Positions 18,154 through 29,566 of a DNA stretch of 64,000 bases are shown here, one piece after another; the first letter of the stretch is position 1, and every line of letters starts with the position of its first letter. The notes beneath the pieces are model-generated. The model searched no databases. It saw only the letters and a program-made list of their open reading frames with translations, and was not told the origin of the DNA. Location of the stretch: the NCBI GenBank assembly GCA_016934395.1, contig JAFGSZ010000145.1, forward strand, positions 1 to 64,000, given 5' to 3'. The translations under genes were made by a program, and so were the position numbers. The DNA comes from Bacteroidales bacterium (GTDB lineage Bacteria; Bacteroidota; Bacteroidia; Bacteroidales; UBA10428).

Positions 18154-18186
18154 ATTGCAGAAATATGATTTTTATCAATATATTTG
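18154..18186 (+). promoter_or_regulatory. Promoter of the leu operon
   Basis: A perfect -7 element TATATTTG at 18179-18186 is preceded by ATTG at 18154-18157 with a 21-bp spacer. Transcription would start near 18192, about 14 bases before the leader-peptide ATG. Confidence 0.65.
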
Positions 18187-18205
18187 CATTCAGTTTAAAA
18201 TAAAG

Positions 18206-18271
18206 ATGAGTTTATTACAATCCATACTATCTATTATTCTTATTCTCGGTATTCTTAAAATACCTAAATGA
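18206..18271 (+). CDS. Leucine/isoleucine-rich leader peptide of the leu operon
   Basis: A 21-residue peptide, MSLLQSILSIILILGILKIPK. Six residues are Leu and six are Ile, with one run of near-continuous control codons from 18224 to 18256. It begins about 14 bases after the predicted transcript start and ends next to alternative RNA hairpins and a terminator, the arrangement of classic ribosome-mediated attenuators. Its role would be cis-acting: ribosome stalling at Leu or Ile codons reports scarcity of the charged tRNAs. It is too short for standard gene callers. Confidence 0.88.
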   Translation: MSLLQSILSIILILGILKIPK

Positions 18272-18334
18272 GGATGGTATGGAATTAAATGATACGTAAA
18301 AGCCATTCTCTAATTCGAGAGTGGCTTTTTTTTT
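18248..18334 (+). promoter_or_regulatory. Transcription attenuator of the leu operon (antiterminator and terminator)
   Basis: Terminator: 18298-18310 pairs with 18317-18329 over 13 bp (one G-U) around a 6-base loop, followed by a T-tract to about 18334. Antiterminator: GAGGATGGT at 18270-18278 pairs with GCCATTCTC at 18302-18310 over 9 bp (two G-U), consuming the terminator's left arm. Protector: ATACC at 18260-18264, inside the last leader codons, can pair with GGTAT at 18276-18280, blocking the antiterminator. A ribosome stalled at Leu/Ile codons covers the protector and allows antitermination; one at the stop codon (18269-18271) covers the antiterminator strand. Confidence 0.85.
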
Positions 18335-18364: not shown

Positions 18365-19861
18365 ATGAGCGAAAAAGTTTACGTTTTTGACACTACCTTA
18401 CGGGACGGCGAACAAGTGCCGGGCTGCCAGTTAAACACGGTTGAAAAGATTGAGGTAGCCAAGGCTCTCGAGGTTCTGGGTGTGGATATTATCGAGGCCG
18501 GATTCCCTATTTCCAGTCCGGGAGATTTTAATTCCGTAGTTGAAATTTCTAAAGTGGTTACCGAACCCACAATATGCGCCCTAACCCGTGCTGTTGAAAA
18601 AGATATTGATGTTGCTGCCGAATCGCTAAAATATGCCCGTAACAAGCGAATACATACAGGAATCGGAACATCCTATTACCATATTCATCTTAAGCTTAAA
18701 TCTAATCCCGAAGAAATTATTGAGCGGGCAATTGCAGCAGTAAAATATGCAAAAAAGTATGTTGATGATGTAGAGTTTTATGCTGAAGATGCCGGCAGGA
18801 CCGAGAACGAATACCTGGCCCGTGTTATCGAAGCAGTAATTAAAGCCGGGGCCACAGTATTAAATATTCCCGACACTACAGGGTATTGCCTTCCCCAGGA
18901 ATTTGGAGAAAAAATTAAATTTCTTAAAGAAAATGTTAAAAATATTGATAAAGCAATTATTTCCACACATTGTCATAACGACCTGGGAATGGCAACAGCC
19001 AATACCATCTCCGGAGTAATAAACGGGGCGCGTCAGGTAGAAGTTACCATTAACGGAATAGGCGAACGTGCAGGAAATACCAGCCTCGAAGAAGTGGCCA
19101 TGATTCTGAAGAGCAGAAAACATCTGGGCCTGGATACAGGAATAAATACAAAAAATATTTTTAGCACCAGCAAGCTGATTTCCGGACTTATGAATATGCC
19201 GGTACAGCCAAATAAAGCCATTGTGGGTCGAAATGCATTTGCCCATTCTTCAGGCATACATCAGGACGGTGTGTTAAAAAACCGGGAGAATTATGAAATT
19301 ATTGATCCTGCTGATGTAGGTATCAGTGAATCTTCAATCGACCTGACTGCCCGGAGCGGAAGGGCAGCATTAAAACACAGGCTTTCCAGACTGGGATACG
19401 ATTTGAAAAAGCAGGAACTGGATGCTGTATATGAAAAGTTTCTGTTGCTGGCCGATAAGAAAAAAGATATTAAAGATGAGGATTTGCAGGTTTTAATCGG
19501 GAAAGAAGAAAACAAAGTCAATCAGGCCATGAAGCTCGAAAAACTTCAGGTTCTTTGCGGAAAATCGGCGATCCCCACAGCAACAGTTACCCTGAATTTT
19601 AATGAAGAATTATTTACGGAAACCGCTTCCGGAAACGGACCTGTAGATGCAGCATTTAATGCCATTAAAAAATTAGTACATACACGGTTCAAATTAGAAG
19701 AGTTTTTAGTACAGGCCATAACCAGGGGAAGCAATGACCTGGGTAAGGTGCATGTACAGATTGAAAATAAGGGCAGGTATTATTACGGATTTGCCGGGAA
19801 TACAGATATTATTACGGCATCTGTTGAAGCATTGCTTGACGCAGTTAACAAAATTGTTTAA
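18365..19861 (+). CDS. leuA: 2-isopropylmalate synthase
   Basis: Condenses acetyl-CoA with 2-oxoisovalerate, the first committed step to leucine. The 498-residue protein has an N-terminal TIM barrel with signature [13 protein letters not shown] (residues 8-20) and metal ligands in [11 protein letters not shown] (about 200-210). [14 protein letters not shown] follows, and the C-terminal LeuA dimerisation/allosteric domain spans about 365-498, implying leucine feedback. It starts about 30 bp after the attenuator terminator, so its transcription depends on read-through. Confidence 0.95.
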
Positions 19862-19880: not shown

Positions 19881-21287
19881 TTGGGAAAAACATTATTCGA
19901 CAAAGTATGGGATTCGCATGTAGTTACTCAGATCGAAGGCGGTCCCAGTGTGTTGTATATCGATAGACATTTAATACATGAAGTAACCAGCCCGCAGGCC
20001 TTTGCAGGACTCGATCAGCGTGGAATTCAGGTTTTCCGTCCACAAAATACGGTTGCCACCCCCGACCACAATGTACCTACACTCGATCAGCACCTTTCGA
20101 TAAAAGATCAGTTATCACGAATTCAGGTAAATAAATTAACCGAAAACACAAAAAAACATGGTATTCAGCTTTTTGGATTAACCCATAAATACCAGGGGAT
20201 AGTGCATGTTATCGGACCCGAACTGGGACTTACACAGCCCGGGATGACTATTGTATGCGGTGACAGCCATACCTCTACACATGGAGCATTTGGCAGCGTG
20301 GCTTTTGGAATTGGGACCAGCGAGGTTGAAATGGTTCTTGCCACCCAGTGCATTTTACAGCCAAAACCTAAAAAGATGCGGATTACAATAAATGGAAAAC
20401 TGGGAAAAGGAGTCACTTCAAAAGATATTATCCTGTACATTATTTCAAAAATATCTACCAGCGGCGCTACCGGTTATTTTGTTGAATATGCAGGTTCGGC
20501 GTTTACCGGTTTAAGCATGGAAGGCCGCATGACTGTTTGTAACATGACCATTGAAATGGGAGCCCGCGGAGGATTAATTGCTCCCGATGAAGTTACCTTT
20601 GAATATATAAAGGGCAGAGAATATGCTCCAAAAGGTAAAGACTGGGATAAAAAGCTGGAATACTGGAAATCATTAAAAACTGATAAGGATGCAGTTTTTG
20701 ATAAAGAACTGGTATACGATGCCGCTGATATTGAACCTATGATTACTTACGGTACCAATCCCGGCATGGGGAAAGGGATTACAGGATCTATTCCCTCACT
20801 ATCGGAATTGCAGGAAACCGAACGTCCTACTTTCCAGAAATCCATGAAATACATGAATTTTGAGCCGGGAAGCAAACTTATTGGGAAACCGGTGGATTAT
20901 GTGTTTTTAGGAAGTTGTACTAACGGAAGAATAGAAGATCTAAGGGCTTTTGCCAATTTTGTAAAAGGGAAAAAGAAAGCGGATTCTATTACTGCCTGGA
21001 TTGTCCCTGGTTCAAAACAGGTTGAAAAACAAGCTAAAGAAGAAGGAATTGACAAAATACTTGAAGAGGCAGGATTTGAATTCAGACAACCCGGTTGTTC
21101 TGCATGCCTGGCTATGAATGAGGATAAAATTCCGGAAGGGAAATATGCCGTTTCAACAACCAATCGCAATTTTGAAGGCCGGCAGGGCCCCGGTGCCAGA
21201 ACAATGCTGGCCAGCCCGTTAACTGCTGCTGCTGTGGCGATAACCGGTAAAATTACAGATCCTCGGGAATTTTTAGCGGAGGTTTAG
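19881..21287 (+). CDS. leuC: 3-isopropylmalate dehydratase, large subunit
   Basis: Isomerises 2- to 3-isopropylmalate with LeuD, and citramalate to 3-methylmalate if the isoleucine branch operates. The 468-residue aconitase-fold protein has 4Fe-4S cysteines in FLGSCTNGR and [12 protein letters not shown]. The start is TTG at 19881, giving the family N-terminus [15 protein letters not shown] 19 bp after leuA. No alternative ATG preserves this conserved beginning. Confidence 0.96.
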
Positions 21288-21325: not shown

Positions 21326-21922
21326 ATGTCGATAGAAAAATTTATAACATTAAAATCGCCATGTGTGCCTTTGCCCATTGAGAATGTGGATACCGACCAG
21401 ATAATTCCGGCAAGGTTTTTAAAGGCCACTACCCGCGATGGATTTGGTGAAAACCTGTTTCGCGACTGGAGATATGATAAGCAAAACCAGCCGGTATCGG
21501 ATTTTGTGCTGAATAATTCTTTATATAGCGGAAAAATTCTTGTTGCCGGAAAAAACTTTGGAAGCGGTTCAAGTCGGGAACATGCTGCCTGGGCCATTCA
21601 CGATTATGGATTTAAAGTGGTCGTTTCAAGCTTTTTTGCCGATATATTCAAGAACAATGCATTAAATAACGGATTGCTGCCTGTGCAGGTCTCTGAAGGT
21701 TTCCTGAAAAAGATTTTTAATGAAATACAGAAGGATACCAAGGTTTTGGTGGAGGTGAACCTCGAAAATCAAACCATAACTATACTGTCAACAGGCGAAA
21801 AAGAAAGTTTTGAAATTAATAATTATAAAAAAGAATGCCTGCTTAATGGATATGATGATATTGATTATTTATTAAGTATCAAGGATAAAATTGTTGAGTT
21901 TGAACAATCGCGGACAGTATAG
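21326..21922 (+). CDS. leuD: 3-isopropylmalate dehydratase, small subunit
   Basis: A 198-residue swivel-domain subunit that completes the LeuCD active site. Visible motifs are [13 protein letters not shown] (residues 20-32) and [17 protein letters not shown] (about 74-90). Same strand, 38 bp after leuC. Normal length. Confidence 0.96.
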
Positions 21923-22089: not shown

Positions 22090-23622
22090 ATGAAAATCGC
22101 CATAATGGATACAACCCTCAGGGATGGGGAGCAGACTTCGGGAGTATCATTTACTGATGAAGAAAAGCTGAGTATTGCCCAACTCTTACTTGAAGAACTT
22201 AAGGTTGACCGCATTGAAGTGGCTTCTGCCAGGGTATCCGAAGGTGAGTTTGATGCCGTAAAAAATATTACTGCATGGGCCAAAACCCGCCGGTTACTTG
22301 ATAAAGTTGAAGTACTTGGATTTGTAGATGATAATGTTTCTGTTGATTGGATTATTGATGCCGGAGCAAAAGTATTAAATCTTCTTACTAAAGGATCTTT
22401 GCGCCATGTGCAGGAACAGCTGAGAAAAACTCCTGAACAACACATCGGGGATATTAAAAAAGTAGTGGCATATGCCAAAAGCAAAGGGCTGAATGTTAAT
22501 ATTTACCTGGAAGACTGGTCGAATGGCATGAGAAATTCTCCCGAATATGTATTTAATATGATTTCGGCCCTGAAAGATGAAAAGATAGATCATTTTATGC
22601 TTCCGGATACCCTGGGTATTTTAAATCCTGATGAAACCTATAAATTTTGTAAAACTATACTGGACAAGTATCCAACATTAAATTTCGATTTTCATGCGCA
22701 TAACGATTACGATCTGGGTATGGCCGATGTATTTGCAGCTTTAAAAGCCGGAATTAGTTGTATCCATACCACAGTGAACGGAATGGGTGAACGTGCAGGG
22801 AACGTTCCTATATCAAGTGTGATTGCTGTGGTTAAGGATCATTTCGGTTACGAAATGGCAGTGGATGAAACTCGATTGAATCTGGTAAGTAAGATGGTGG
22901 AAACATTTTCAGGTATGCGGATACCACATAATAAACCTTTAATCGGCGAAAGTGTATTTACCCAAACCAGCGGTGTGCATGCTGATGGTGATAACAAAAA
23001 TAATTTGTATTATAACGATCTGTTACCGGAACGTTTTGGGAGAAAAAGGGTATATGCCCTGGGTAAATTATCGGGGAAGGCCAATATTCAGAAAAACCTC
23101 GAAGAAATGGGTATTGCGCTTGATATAAAATCTATGAAAAAAGTTACGCAACGCATTATTGAATTGGGCGATAAAAAAGAAACCGTTACACCCGAAGACC
23201 TGCCTTACATTATTTCTGATGTGTTGAGAAGCAAAGAAATAGATGAAAAAATCAAGATTATGAATTTTTCACTTTCTACGGCAAACGGATTAAAACCCGT
23301 GGCTACACTGAAGATTAAAATAAAAGATAAAGTATATGAAGAAACTTCAGTGGGTGATGGACAATACGATGCCTTTATGAAAGCCCTGAGAAAAATATAC
23401 AGTAAGCTTGACCAGAGCCTGCCCAGATTAATAGATTATGTAGTTTCAATACCTCCCGGCGGTAAAACAGATGCCCTGGTACAAACGATCATTACCTGGA
23501 AGTTAAACAGAGAATTTAAAACCCGGGGACTTGATTCGGATCAAACCGTTGCAGCTATAAAAGCTACCATAAAAATGTTGAACATACTTGAAGACAGCGC
23601 CCTTAAACAGCACTCAGTATAA
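22090..23622 (+). CDS. cimA: LeuA-like synthase, probable (R)-citramalate synthase
   Basis: A 510-residue member of the isopropylmalate/citramalate/homocitrate synthase family. It has [14 protein letters not shown] (6-19), the metal motif DFHAHNDYDLGMAD, VNGMGERAGN and a C-terminal regulatory domain (from about 390). It is clearly different from the leuA in the same operon. A citramalate synthase (pyruvate plus acetyl-CoA) would start threonine-independent isoleucine synthesis using LeuCD and a LeuB. That assignment is inferred from context and paralogy; a second isopropylmalate synthase is the alternative. It follows leuD after 167 bp with no clear terminator. Confidence 0.75.
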   Translation: MKIAIMDTTLRDGEQTSGVSFTDEEKLSIAQLLLEELKVDRIEVASARVSEGEFDAVKNITAWAKTRRLLDKVEVLGFVDDNVSVDWIIDAGAKVLNLLTKGSLRHVQEQLRKTPEQHIGDIKKVVAYAKSKGLNVNIYLEDWSNGMRNSPEYVFNMISALKDEKIDHFMLPDTLGILNPDETYKFCKTILDKYPTLNFDFHAHNDYDLGMADVFAALKAGISCIHTTVNGMGERAGNVPISSVIAVVKDHFGYEMAVDETRLNLVSKMVETFSGMRIPHNKPLIGESVFTQTSGVHADGDNKNNLYYNDLLPERFGRKRVYALGKLSGKANIQKNLEEMGIALDIKSMKKVTQRIIELGDKKETVTPEDLPYIISDVLRSKEIDEKIKIMNFSLSTANGLKPVATLKIKIKDKVYEETSVGDGQYDAFMKALRKIYSKLDQSLPRLIDYVVSIPPGGKTDALVQTIITWKLNREFKTRGLDSDQTVAAIKATIKMLNILEDSALKQHSV

Positions 23623-23780: not shown

Positions 23781-24842
23781 ATGAGCAAAGCTTATAACAT
23801 TGCAGTATTACCTGGTGATGGTACCGGGCCCGAAGTAGTAGCTGAAGGTATTAAGGTGCTGAAAGCCGTTGCCGGGAAATTTAATTTCTCATTACATTTT
23901 GAAACATTTGACTGGGGTGGTGACAGATACCTTAAAACCGGTGAGGTTTTGCCGGAATCAGCGCCGGACCAATTGCGTAAATTTGATGCAATTTATCTGG
24001 GGGCAATTGGTCACCCGGATGTAAAACCCGGTATTCTGGAAAAAGGGATCTTATTAAAGCTTCGATTTGAACTCGATCAATATATTAACCTTCGTCCTGT
24101 TAAGCTTTATCCCGGTGTTCCTACACCCTTAAAAGATAAAGGACCCGAACATATTGATTATGTTGTAGTACGCGAAAATACAGGTGGACTATATACCGGT
24201 ATAGGCGGGATATCGATGAAAGGAACACCCGATGAGGTAGCAGTTCAAAGCATGGTATATAATAGAAAACAGGTAGAACGTTGTTTACGTTATGCTTTTG
24301 ATTATACCAAAAAACGCAATAAAAAGAATACCCTGGCTTTATCAGGGAAAACCAACGTGCTAACCTATGTTTATGATCTATGGGAACGTGCATTTCATGA
24401 AGTGGGAGAAAAAGATTATAAGGAAATAAAACGCGAATATTATCATGTGGATGCTACCTGTATGTGGATGGTAAAAAATCCGGAATGGTTTGATGTAATT
24501 GTAACCGGCAATATGTTTGGAGATATAATTACCGATCTTGGAGCCATTACACAGGGTGGTATGGGCATTGCAGCCGGAGGAAACATAAATCCTGAAGGCG
24601 TATCAATGTTCGAACCTATTGGTGGTTCAGCACCTAAATATACAGGAAAAAATATTATTAATCCGTTAGCTGCCATTGCCAGTGCGCAGATGATGCTGGA
24701 GCATCTTGGTGAAGATAAAGCCGCCAGGGCAATCGAGTCATCAATAATGAATGTTACTGCCAATAAGCTAAAAAGTATGGGGGCAGGACAAATGGGTTAT
24801 TCTACTTCTGAAGTAGGCGATTTGATCGCAAAAGGAATATAA
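23781..24842 (+). CDS. Isopropylmalate/isocitrate dehydrogenase family protein (LeuB paralogue)
   Basis: A 353-residue decarboxylating beta-hydroxyacid dehydrogenase. PGDGTGPEVV opens the fold, LRFELDQYINLRPVKLYPG carries substrate arginines, and NMFGDIITDLGA holds metal-binding aspartates. The specificity loop reads VVRENTGGLYTG, unlike the canonical LeuB loop [11 protein letters not shown] of the next gene and closer to the ICDH/tartrate-type RENTxG pattern. It may handle 3-methylmalate, 3-isopropylmalate or another substrate. Located 158 bp after the citramalate-synthase-like gene and directly followed by a terminator, so it probably ends the leu transcript. Confidence 0.8.
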   Translation: MSKAYNIAVLPGDGTGPEVVAEGIKVLKAVAGKFNFSLHFETFDWGGDRYLKTGEVLPESAPDQLRKFDAIYLGAIGHPDVKPGILEKGILLKLRFELDQYINLRPVKLYPGVPTPLKDKGPEHIDYVVVRENTGGLYTGIGGISMKGTPDEVAVQSMVYNRKQVERCLRYAFDYTKKRNKKNTLALSGKTNVLTYVYDLWERAFHEVGEKDYKEIKREYYHVDATCMWMVKNPEWFDVIVTGNMFGDIITDLGAITQGGMGIAAGGNINPEGVSMFEPIGGSAPKYTGKNIINPLAAIASAQMMLEHLGEDKAARAIESSIMNVTANKLKSMGAGQMGYSTSEVGDLIAKGI

Positions 24843-24938: not shown

Positions 24939-26009
24939 ATGAGAGAATTTAAGATTGCTTTATTGCCCGGAGATGGCATTGGGGGAGAGATAGTAAACGA
25001 GGCAGTAAAAGTATTGAAAGCCATTGAAGAGAAATTTAATCACAGGTTTAAATTTAACGATGCTTTGGTAGGAGCTGCAGCTATTGAAGAAACCGGAAAT
25101 CCATTTCCCGAAGAAACCTATTTGTTGTGCAAAAACTCCGATGCCGTTTTATTTGGGGCTATTGGTGATCCAAAGTACGATAACGACCCCAAGGCAAAAA
25201 TACGCCCGGAACAGGGCTTACTGGCTATGAGGAAAAAGCTGGGGCTTTTCGCCAATATCAGGCCGGTAACTACATTTCCTTCGCTGCTGGATAAATCGCC
25301 ACTTCGCCGTGATATTATTGAAGGCGCCGATTTTGTTATGATTCGCGAACTTACCGGAGGAATTTATTTTGGTGAGCTCAGAGGCCGTACCGAAGACGGA
25401 ACAAAAGCCTATGACACCAACGTGTATTCAAAAGATGAAATTTCCCGTGTAACCCGGCTTGCTTTTGATTATGCATCCAGAAGAAAAAAGAGATTAACAG
25501 CCGTAGATAAAGCAAATGTACTGGCAACATCCAGGTTATGGAGAGAAACCATCCAGGAAATGGAAAAAGATTATCCGGACATTACGGTAGATTATATGTT
25601 TGTAGATAATGCGGCCATGCAAATAATACAATGGCCCAAACGGTTCGATGTGATTGTTACTGAAAACATGTTTGGAGATATTCTTTCTGATGAAGCTTCT
25701 GTTATTACCGGTTCGCTGGGTATGTTACCCTCTGCCTCTGTTGGTACCCAGACATCTGTATATGAACCCATTCACGGTTCATATCCACAGGCAGCCGGAA
25801 AAAATATTGCCAATCCACTGGCTACGGTATTATCGGCAGCTATGCTTCTTGAAGATTCTTTACAACTAATCAAGGAAGCGGAATTGATCAGAAAGGCTGT
25901 TAATGTATCGATTGAAAAAGGTATATTAACGGAAGACATTGCCACAGGTAAACACTATAAGACTTCTGAAGTAGGTGACTGGCTGGCAAACTACATCCTA
26001 AAATCGTAA
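24939..26009 (+). CDS. leuB: 3-isopropylmalate dehydrogenase
   Basis: Oxidatively decarboxylates 3-isopropylmalate to 4-methyl-2-oxopentanoate using NAD+. A 356-residue protein with [13 protein letters not shown], the LeuB-specific loop [13 protein letters not shown], the magnesium-binding segment [13 protein letters not shown] and [14 protein letters not shown] start at ATG 24939 ([15 protein letters not shown]); the frame is open further upstream through the terminator hairpin, which is not coding. A weak -7-like TAACTTTA at 24905-24912 could drive it separately. Confidence 0.95.
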
Positions 26010-27664: not shown

Positions 27665-29566
27665 ATGAGCGAAGAGATTAAACATGAGTGTGGAATTGCC
27701 CTTATTAGACTTTTAAAACCCCTCGAATATTATCAGCTTAAATACGGCTCCTGGCGTTATGGGCTAAATAAGCTCTACCTATTAATGGAAAAGCAGCACA
27801 ACAGGGGGCAGGATGGAGCAGGCATCGTTAGTGTAAAGCTCAATCTTCCTCCCGGTAAGGATTATATTCATAGAGTCCGTTCAATTAAGCCATCTGCCAT
27901 AAATGATGTTTTTAAGAAAATTAATGCGCCCTTATTAAAAGCAGAAAAAAAATCACCAAAATCAATCGATGATCCGAATTGGGCAAAATTAAATCTTCCT
28001 TTTGCTGGTGAAGTGCTGCTGGGACATTTGCGATATGGCACCTACGGGAAAAACAATATTGAACATGTGCATCCTGTAATGCGCCAGAATAACTGGAGAT
28101 CGAGAAATCTTGTACTTGCAGGAAATTTTAACCTTACAAATGTCGAGGAACTTTTTCAAATTCTTGTCGATCTGGGTCAGCATCCAACAGATTTTACCGA
28201 TACTGTAACCATCCTTGAAAATGTAGGTCACTTTTTAGATACTGAAAATCAGAAAGAATTTAATAAATATAAAAAGCTCGATTATTCAAATGCAGAAATT
28301 TCCAGGCAGATCGCAGATAATATTTCCATAGCAAATATATTAGCCGAATCGAGTAAAAAATGGGACGGCGGATATGTTATTGCCGGAATGATTGGTCATG
28401 GGGATGCGTTTGTTTTACGCGATCCATGGGGGATACGCCCGGCATTTTACTATATAAACGATGAAATTGCCGTAGTTACTTCCGAGCGGCCTGTTATTCA
28501 AACTGTGCTTAATGTAACAGCAGATAATATTCATGAATTGGATCCGGGACATGCAATAATTATTAAGAAACACGGAGAAATTTCCATCGATAAAATACGT
28601 GAGCCTTTTGAAAAAAAGTCTTGTTCTTTTGAGCGTATTTATTTCTCGCGTGGAGGCGATAAGGAAATTTATAAAGAGCGAAAAAAACTGGGTGAACTGT
28701 TAACCCCCCAGATCGTTCGAGCTGTTGATAATGATCTTGAAAATACAGTTTTTTCTTTTATTCCAAATACTGCAGAAACCGCTTTTTATGGTATGATCAG
28801 GGGTGTGGAGTATTACATGCAGAACGAGGGTAAAAAGAAAATCGTGAAACTGGGGAAAGATATAACTGAAGAACAGCTCGATCAAATTATTGCCCTGCGG
28901 CCACGTGTGGAAAAAGTGGCTATTAAAGATATTAAACTGCGTACATTTATTTCGCAGGATAAAGGCCGTGATGATCTGGTAGGCCATGTATACGACGTGT
29001 CTTACGATACCATCAGGAAAGGATTGGATAACCTGGTAATTATTGATGATTCAATAGTACGTGGAACGACATTAAAATATAGTATTATAAAAATTTTAGA
29101 CCGTTTGGGACCAAAACGTATTGTTGTTGTTTCTTCATCCCCACAAATAAGGTATCCCGATTGTTATGGAATTGATATGGCAAAGCTTGGTGATTTTATT
29201 GCTTTTAAAGCTGCCATTGAATTGCTAAAAGAAACCGGCAGGGAAAACATAATTAATGATGTGTATAATAAATCAAAAGCACAAATCGGCCTGCCGAAAG
29301 AAAATTATATTAACCACGTAAAAGAAATTTATGCTCCCTTTTCGAATGAAGAAATATCGGATAAAATAGCGCAAATGTTGTGTACATCAGAAATAAATGC
29401 TGAGATAAAAATTGTATATCAAACAATAGAAAACCTTCATATTGCGTGCCCTAATGACCTGGGCGACTGGTATTTCTCCGGGGATTATCCTACTCCGGGT
29501 GGGAATAAAGTGGTTACTAAAGCTTTTGTAAATTTTATTGAAGGAAAAAATATAAGGGCGTATTAA
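27665..29566 (+). CDS. Long PurF-like glutamine amidotransferase/phosphoribosyltransferase
   Basis: A 633-residue class II amidotransferase fused to a PRTase domain, longer than typical PurF (about 470-500). The nucleophile candidate is Cys9 (HECGIALI), which would need removal of an eight-residue propeptide. NRGQDGAGI and GHLRYGTYG belong to the glutaminase domain. VIIDDSIVRGTTLKYS (about 458-473) is the PRPP loop. It may be amidophosphoribosyltransferase or a Bacteroidota-specific paralogue; a standard purF is not in the window, so this cannot be settled here. Its stop overlaps that of the convergent acyltransferase gene. Confidence 0.8.
   Translation: MSEEIKHECGIALIRLLKPLEYYQLKYGSWRYGLNKLYLLMEKQHNRGQDGAGIVSVKLNLPPGKDYIHRVRSIKPSAINDVFKKINAPLLKAEKKSPKSIDDPNWAKLNLPFAGEVLLGHLRYGTYGKNNIEHVHPVMRQNNWRSRNLVLAGNFNLTNVEELFQILVDLGQHPTDFTDTVTILENVGHFLDTENQKEFNKYKKLDYSNAEISRQIADNISIANILAESSKKWDGGYVIAGMIGHGDAFVLRDPWGIRPAFYYINDEIAVVTSERPVIQTVLNVTADNIHELDPGHAIIIKKHGEISIDKIREPFEKKSCSFERIYFSRGGDKEIYKERKKLGELLTPQIVRAVDNDLENTVFSFIPNTAETAFYGMIRGVEYYMQNEGKKKIVKLGKDITEEQLDQIIALRPRVEKVAIKDIKLRTFISQDKGRDDLVGHVYDVSYDTIRKGLDNLVIIDDSIVRGTTLKYSIIKILDRLGPKRIVVVSSSPQIRYPDCYGIDMAKLGDFIAFKAAIELLKETGRENIINDVYNKSKAQIGLPKENYINHVKEIYAPFSNEEISDKIAQMLCTSEINAEIKIVYQTIENLHIACPNDLGDWYFSGDYPTPGGNKVVTKAFVNFIEGKNIRAY

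Follow-up and report, generated by a model that had tools for sequence, protein, structure and literature searches.

A predicted leader-peptide attenuator with leucine and isoleucine codons ahead of a leu operon carrying a citramalate synthase-like gene in Bacteroidales

The leu operon in the 64,000-nucleotide stretch of Bacteroidales DNA analyzed here (the window) is preceded by a predicted leader ORF, MSLLQSILSIILILGILKIPK, in which Leu and Ile account for 12 of the 21 codons (six each) and Val for none; the Leu/Ile enrichment is conserved in relatives. The question raised by this locus is why the leader of a leucine operon should be as rich in isoleucine as in leucine codons, and what such a leader would sense. 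Based on the sequence and its comparison with relatives, we consider it highly probable that the region is a classical ribosome-mediated transcription attenuator, which reads charged tRNA-Leu together with charged tRNA-Ile and controls an operon for leucine and a citramalate-derived isoleucine precursor.

Anatomy, alternative pairings and conservation of the leader

An earlier note on this DNA had described a promoter match, a 21-codon leader with six Leu and six Ile codons, a 9-bp antiterminator and a 13-bp terminator ahead of the leu operon, and all of these elements were read in the window (Table 1). The putative promoter was recognized by the Bacteroidota consensus (TTG / TAnnTTTG); its TTG and TATATTTG elements are separated by 21 nt, and the TAnnTTTG-like -7 box is aligned in 14 family members. 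The TGA of the leader ORF sits inside the 5' arm of the antiterminator, and the end of the terminator stem lies 36 nt from leuA, a distance that reaches up to 300 nt in family relatives. The leader fold is much more stable than that of shuffled sequences (z -5.4), none of 200 shuffles being as stable.

Table 1. Predicted features of the leader region and the leu operon (positions in the window)
Feature	Positions	Strand	Basis
Predicted Bacteroidota-type promoter	18155..18186	+	-33 TTG 18155-18157; -7 TATATTTG (TAnnTTTG) 18179-18186; read from sequence
Leader peptide ORF MSLLQSILSIILILGILKIPK	18206..18271	+	ATG 18206, TGA 18269-18271; shared by 14 family members, with homologues across Bacteroidales
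Region 1, likely protector 5' arm TCCATACTATCT	18221..18232	+	over codons 6-9; pairs with 18272-18283 GGATGGTATGGA
Region 2, antiterminator 5' arm GAGGATGGT	18270..18278	+	GAGAATGGT in most relatives
Region 3, antiterminator 3' arm GCCATTCTC	18302..18310	+	common to terminator 5' arm
Intrinsic terminator	18298..18334	+	13-bp stem 18298-18329, then T-tract ending near 18334
leuA, 2-isopropylmalate synthase	18365..19861	+	NF002086 741 bits, TIGR00973 692 bits, both over cut-off
leuC	19881..21287	+	TIGR00170 690 bits
leuD	21326..21922	+	TIGR00171 205 bits
cimA-like, predicted (R)-citramalate synthase of Leptospira type	22090..23622	+	NF042433 679 bits; LeuA models at most 359
leuB paralogue 1, possible 3-methylmalate dehydrogenase (substrate inferred)	23781..24842	+	NF002898 494 bits, over cut-off
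leuB, 3-isopropylmalate dehydrogenase	24939..26009	+	TIGR00169 479 bits

The antiterminator consists of 9 bp, two of which are G-U, and is mutually exclusive with the terminator, since region 3 belongs to both. No other terminator-like site within 10 kb has a stem as long as that of the terminator. A protector pairing between ATACC (18260-18264) and GGTAT (18276-18280), also put forward in the earlier note, is possible, but only 73% of its cells are paired in the 14 relatives, which is no better than shuffled. We rejected this pairing; in the minimum-energy fold of the window ATACC pairs upstream, and a 12-bp helix between TCCATACTATCT and GGATGGTATGGA forms instead. The exact region 1 helix is not conserved; in each relative a pairing of Leu/Ile codons with region 2 is possible, and different codons may serve this purpose.

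These pairings suggest how the switch might operate. If either charged tRNA-Leu or charged tRNA-Ile were short, the ribosome would stall in the run of Leu/Ile codons and region 2 would be left free to pair with region 3; no terminator stem would form, and RNA polymerase would continue into the operon, whose order is leuA-leuC-leuD-cimA-leuB-leuB. If both charged tRNAs were abundant, the ribosome would reach the stop codon and cover region 2, and the terminator would form. In an untranslated leader, region 1 would sequester region 2 in most relatives. The 14 family sequences were folded with a ribosome footprint placed at each Leu/Ile codon. A simulated stall at nearly any of these codons gave an antiterminator probability of about 1.0, as opposed to 0.0 with the ribosome at the stop codon; because pairing of the RNA behind the ribosome was disallowed, a constraint in favor of the antiterminator, the stalled simulation is informative only as to the footprint geometry. 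The Leu/Ile codons of these sequences cluster 5-15 codons before the stop. With no ribosome, the antiterminator probability averaged 0.28 over the 14 sequences, i.e., masking is partial, and was 0.00 for the window's own sequence; the value differs between relatives because region 1 can sequester region 2.

All 14 members of the family (the window included) share the leader, an overlap of its stop codon with the antiterminator arm (TGAGAATGG), and a CCATTCTC-type terminator. Across them, 94% of terminator cells are paired and six pairs show changes on both sides, a level reached by none of 500 shuffles. For the antiterminator 99% of cells are paired and the arm is almost invariant, too much so for covariation to be visible within the family. 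Across the order, the antiterminator arms vary by lineage (CCATTCTC, CCTTTCTC, CTTCTTGC and others), and pairing with the own terminator arm was stronger than with arms of other classes (mean -15.4 versus -10.9 kcal/mol; shuffled -8.8), the own arm being better in 73 of 79 cases. The leader frame is likewise conserved, while the peptide sequence drifts freely between relatives except for its Leu/Ile content. The mixed Leu/Ile attenuator proposed in the earlier note was thus borne out in its core. Of the three stems in which it had proposed to look for compensatory changes, the terminator shows them, the antiterminator arms co-vary between lineages, and ATACC/GGTAT is not conserved.

A strict joint scan for leader, antiterminator and terminator recovered 43 of 100 leuA upstream regions, mostly from Bacteroidales, and none of 300 dinucleotide shuffles. 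Relatives of Phocaeicola and Draconibacterium also have this architecture (L102, L110, L084 and L088). More than half of the leuA upstream regions surveyed contain no recognizable attenuator, in some cases because leuA comes after ilvC as part of a larger operon; leuA genes inside such ilv operons are mostly without a leader of their own.

The operon genes, the citramalate route and the ilvD leaders

The fourth gene of the operon offers a reason for the isoleucine codons. NF042433 is by far the best model for its product, although the score of 679 bits lies below the curated NCBIfam cut-off of 950. The best PDB match is the Leptospira citramalate synthase 3ble (408 bits; homocitrate synthase reaches 200 and isopropylmalate synthase, IPMS, 158), with which the VLNLLTKGS and YLEDWSNG stretches are identical. 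Of these three enzymes, citramalate synthase is the nearest to the protein, and citramalate synthase activity is predicted. LeuCD and LeuB convert citramalate to 2-oxobutyrate, a precursor of isoleucine. The best IlvA-like protein found in the same genome is matched better by beta-hydroxyaspartate dehydratase/hydroxyaspartate ammonia-lyase models than by threonine deaminase. Because a CimA-type enzyme is encoded, LeuCD and LeuB process citramalate and the IlvA-like protein fits other models, the operon should make both leucine and the isoleucine precursor. The presence of CimA in the operon likely explains a leader with Leu and Ile codons and no Val, an explanation absent from the earlier note. 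On the + strand, no strong terminator-like site was found within the leuA-leuB operon, whose transcription as a single unit we infer.

The LeuB paralogue between cimA and leuB is nearer to the PRK03437/tartrate dehydrogenase branch and is the best match after cimA in a few relatives (L256, L268, L269); it may act in the citramalate route as the 3-methylmalate dehydrogenase. A second leuC-leuD-cimA set occurs in the same genome on a 3.4-kb contig (L202, G000:C97), with a CimA 67% identical, and is possibly contamination (the bin is 4.3% contaminated).

The ilvD leaders served as a control of specificity. The ilvD-ilvB-ilvH-ilvC operon of the same genome has an attenuator of its own (L122:1874-1999, G000:C146), with its own antiterminator and terminator and conserved across the family, whose leader MRNIIVIVSIVLISVLRMLR contains 5 Ile, 4 Val and 3 Leu codons. 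Mean codon numbers were 3.8 Leu, 3.8 Ile and 5.5 Val for 26 ilvD leaders, compared with 5.1 Leu, 5.4 Ile and 0.6 Val for 18 leuA leaders. When the two leaders of the same genome were compared, the ilvD leader had more Val in all 15 pairs (Wilcoxon p 0.0006).

Isoleucine codons and CimA across leuA leaders

Across the leuA leaders, all 71 that head an operon with CimA contain at least 2 Ile codons, compared with 3 of 11 without CimA in the operon, the other eight having 0-1 Ile. In the first sample the figures were 49 of 49 leaders with CimA versus 2 of 7 without it; some of these leaders had been chosen by their Leu+Ile content, and six loci were read by eye. For a held-out, order-wide set, leaders were picked by Leu only and the Ile prediction was written beforehand. 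At least 2 Ile codons were found in 23 of its 24 leaders with CimA; in the remaining one the ORF had been called wrongly, and correction by eye to the true leader, MKLTSLILGIFIISIIFRC with 6 Ile, brings the count to 24 of 24. Leaders without CimA had 0-1 Ile in 3 of 4 cases. With both samples pooled, the association gave a Fisher p of 3e-8, kinship being ignored. On the LeuA tree we counted six changes in Ile state and 4-5 well-supported independent pairs, none contrary; the phylogenetic sign test falls short of significance (median p 0.125-0.25) because the independent pairs are too few. Many of the genomes are incomplete metagenome bins, and contigs ending before a possible CimA were set aside.

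Two CimA-less genomes with Leu-only leaders (G047 and G260) carry a true IlvA, at 488.8 and 473.8 bits, over the cut-off; in G258 (L058), whose genome may be incomplete, neither CimA nor IlvA was found. Ile codons are kept without CimA in the operon at L033, L063 and L322. In two of these, L033 and L322 of family f5, the operon is leuA-leuC-leuD, cimA lies elsewhere or was not seen, and 4-5 Ile are retained. In a third f5 genome (L326) leuA is separate from leuCD and the leader has 1 Ile. The f5 cases hint that the rule concerns whether the operon supplies LeuCD to the isoleucine route; L063 and L089 do not fit this refinement cleanly. The leuA leader of G030 (L247) was left out of the counts because two overlapping frames, the Thr/Ile-rich MKNGTGTFTIATTIAGFQQ... 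and the Leu-rich MAQVRSLSLRLLQDFSR, are equally possible before the terminator; its reading as a Thr/Ile-rich leader was dropped for the same reason.

Several arrangements were observed besides. At L040 and L253, leuA and leuCD are separated. The L040 genome has its cimA in a cluster of the order ilvC-leuC-leuD-cimA-leuB (L243), and the leader of its solitary leuA is Leu-only (9 Leu, 0 Ile). No attenuator with a recognizable terminator was found at the CimA-less leu operons L275, L282 and L297 of family f127, which are perhaps under a different mode of control; L275 has a Leu-rich ORF of about 43 codons upstream of leuA, and a similar stretch occurs in L282. Where cimA lies outside leuA operons in other Bacteroidota, no attenuator was found immediately ahead of it; in most of the cases checked, cimA follows leuD.

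It is possible to read the isoleucine codons differently, with tRNA-Leu as the sole effective signal and Ile kept either as a protector (ATT-CTC being complementary to the GAGAAT arm) or for a hydrophobic peptide. Pairing of the Ile-Leu dicodons (ATTCTC, ATTCTT, CATACT) with GAGAATGG is indeed possible across the 14 family members; however, Ile persists in lineages whose arms are quite different, CCTTTCTC and CTTCTTGC among them, and leaders of CimA-less operons retain the attenuator yet mostly have 0-1 Ile. A merely hydrophobic peptide would also not avoid Val, whereas leuA leaders with CimA average 0.49 Val per leader against the 5.5 of ilvD leaders. We regard sensing of leucine alone as unlikely; the comparison strongly suggests dual sensing of tRNA-Leu and tRNA-Ile.

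Less probable still, and in our estimation quite implausible, is that the leader encodes a small protein that is expressed as such, that the terminator behind it is an ordinary one, and that another factor controls the operon. In favor of this, stalling is a prediction, and the upstream neighbor of the leader region is a gene of the YebC/PmpR family, which NCBIfam names a DNA-binding regulator. Against it, the freedom with which the peptide drifts save for Leu/Ile content, the coincidence of the stop codon with the antiterminator arm, and the fact that one pairing partner changes in step with the other all argue for an attenuator driven by the ribosome.

It seems on balance probable that the leuA attenuator acts throughout Bacteroidales as a modular sensor with an amino-acid specificity that evolves with the operon, in which Ile codons are present together with an operon-borne citramalate route and are lost when CimA leaves or a threonine deaminase supplies isoleucine, the ilv leader adding Val. 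Such retuning would have proceeded by codon substitution, several times independently. The family permits a direct test of how a sensor is retuned when its operon gains or loses a pathway gene.

Relation to known attenuators

Mixed control codons are known from the enterobacterial ilvGMEDA (Ile, Val, Leu) and thr (Thr, Ile) leaders. The present leader resembles the enterobacterial leu (Rfam Leu_leader) and ilvGMEDA attenuators in being rich in codons of the end products and in its alternative antiterminator and terminator; it differs from them in combining Leu and Ile without Val on a leu operon, which CimA would explain. A survey by Lopatovskaya et al. 2010 reportedly may list Bacteroidota attenuators; priority for leuA attenuators of this phylum cannot be claimed.

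In Rfam, no family matched the leader at gathering score, and the matches below it were weak and chance-like, the best amino-acid leader being Phe_leader at 21.6 bits (cut-off 55); since there is no Rfam match, the leader has no detectable relation to curated leader families. The same result, together with the scant space left beside the coding region for a structured aptamer, makes a protein- or ligand-binding riboswitch or a T-box that overlaps the short ORF by chance, for which we found no supporting point, exceedingly improbable.

In Staphylococcus aureus, a Leu-rich ilvD leader peptide with three Ile codons precedes the ilv-leu operon, and its terminator/antiterminator model is backed by mutations (PMC5794164). 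That leader belongs to another phylum and another operon, isoleucine regulation in S. aureus is mainly via CodY, and the available text of the report draws no link to a citramalate pathway (PMC5794164). Within the same phylum as the window, leader-peptide attenuation has been proposed for Flavobacterium psychrophilum, ahead of amino-acid operons (PMC9723704), and for Bacteroides thetaiotaomicron, where it concerns short ORFs within long 5' UTRs (PMC7366714). The main texts on both species, as far as available, name no leuA or ilv attenuator and do not relate codon content to citramalate synthase or gene content (PMC9723704, PMC7366714). The actinobacterial LEU element also places a Leu-rich leader ORF upstream of leuA; there, a run of Leu codons and a proposed pseudoknot with the Shine-Dalgarno region are described, in contrast to the terminator found here (PMC1262725).

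The mechanism proposed for the present leader is of a known kind, classical leader-peptide attenuation; what appears to be new is a Bacteroidota family absent from Rfam, and a specificity that follows the gene content of the operon. This order-wide family has a biochemical rationale and occurs in a phylum where leader-peptide attenuation is little documented. Its codon content would serve as a readable marker of the end products of an operon, and supports citramalate-based isoleucine synthesis in genomes in which no biosynthetic threonine deaminase was found.

Farther along the window, positions 27665-29566 encode a 633-aa PurF-like amidophosphoribosyltransferase, which scores 115 bits against the PurF equivalog cut-off of 350 and is a divergent paralogue.
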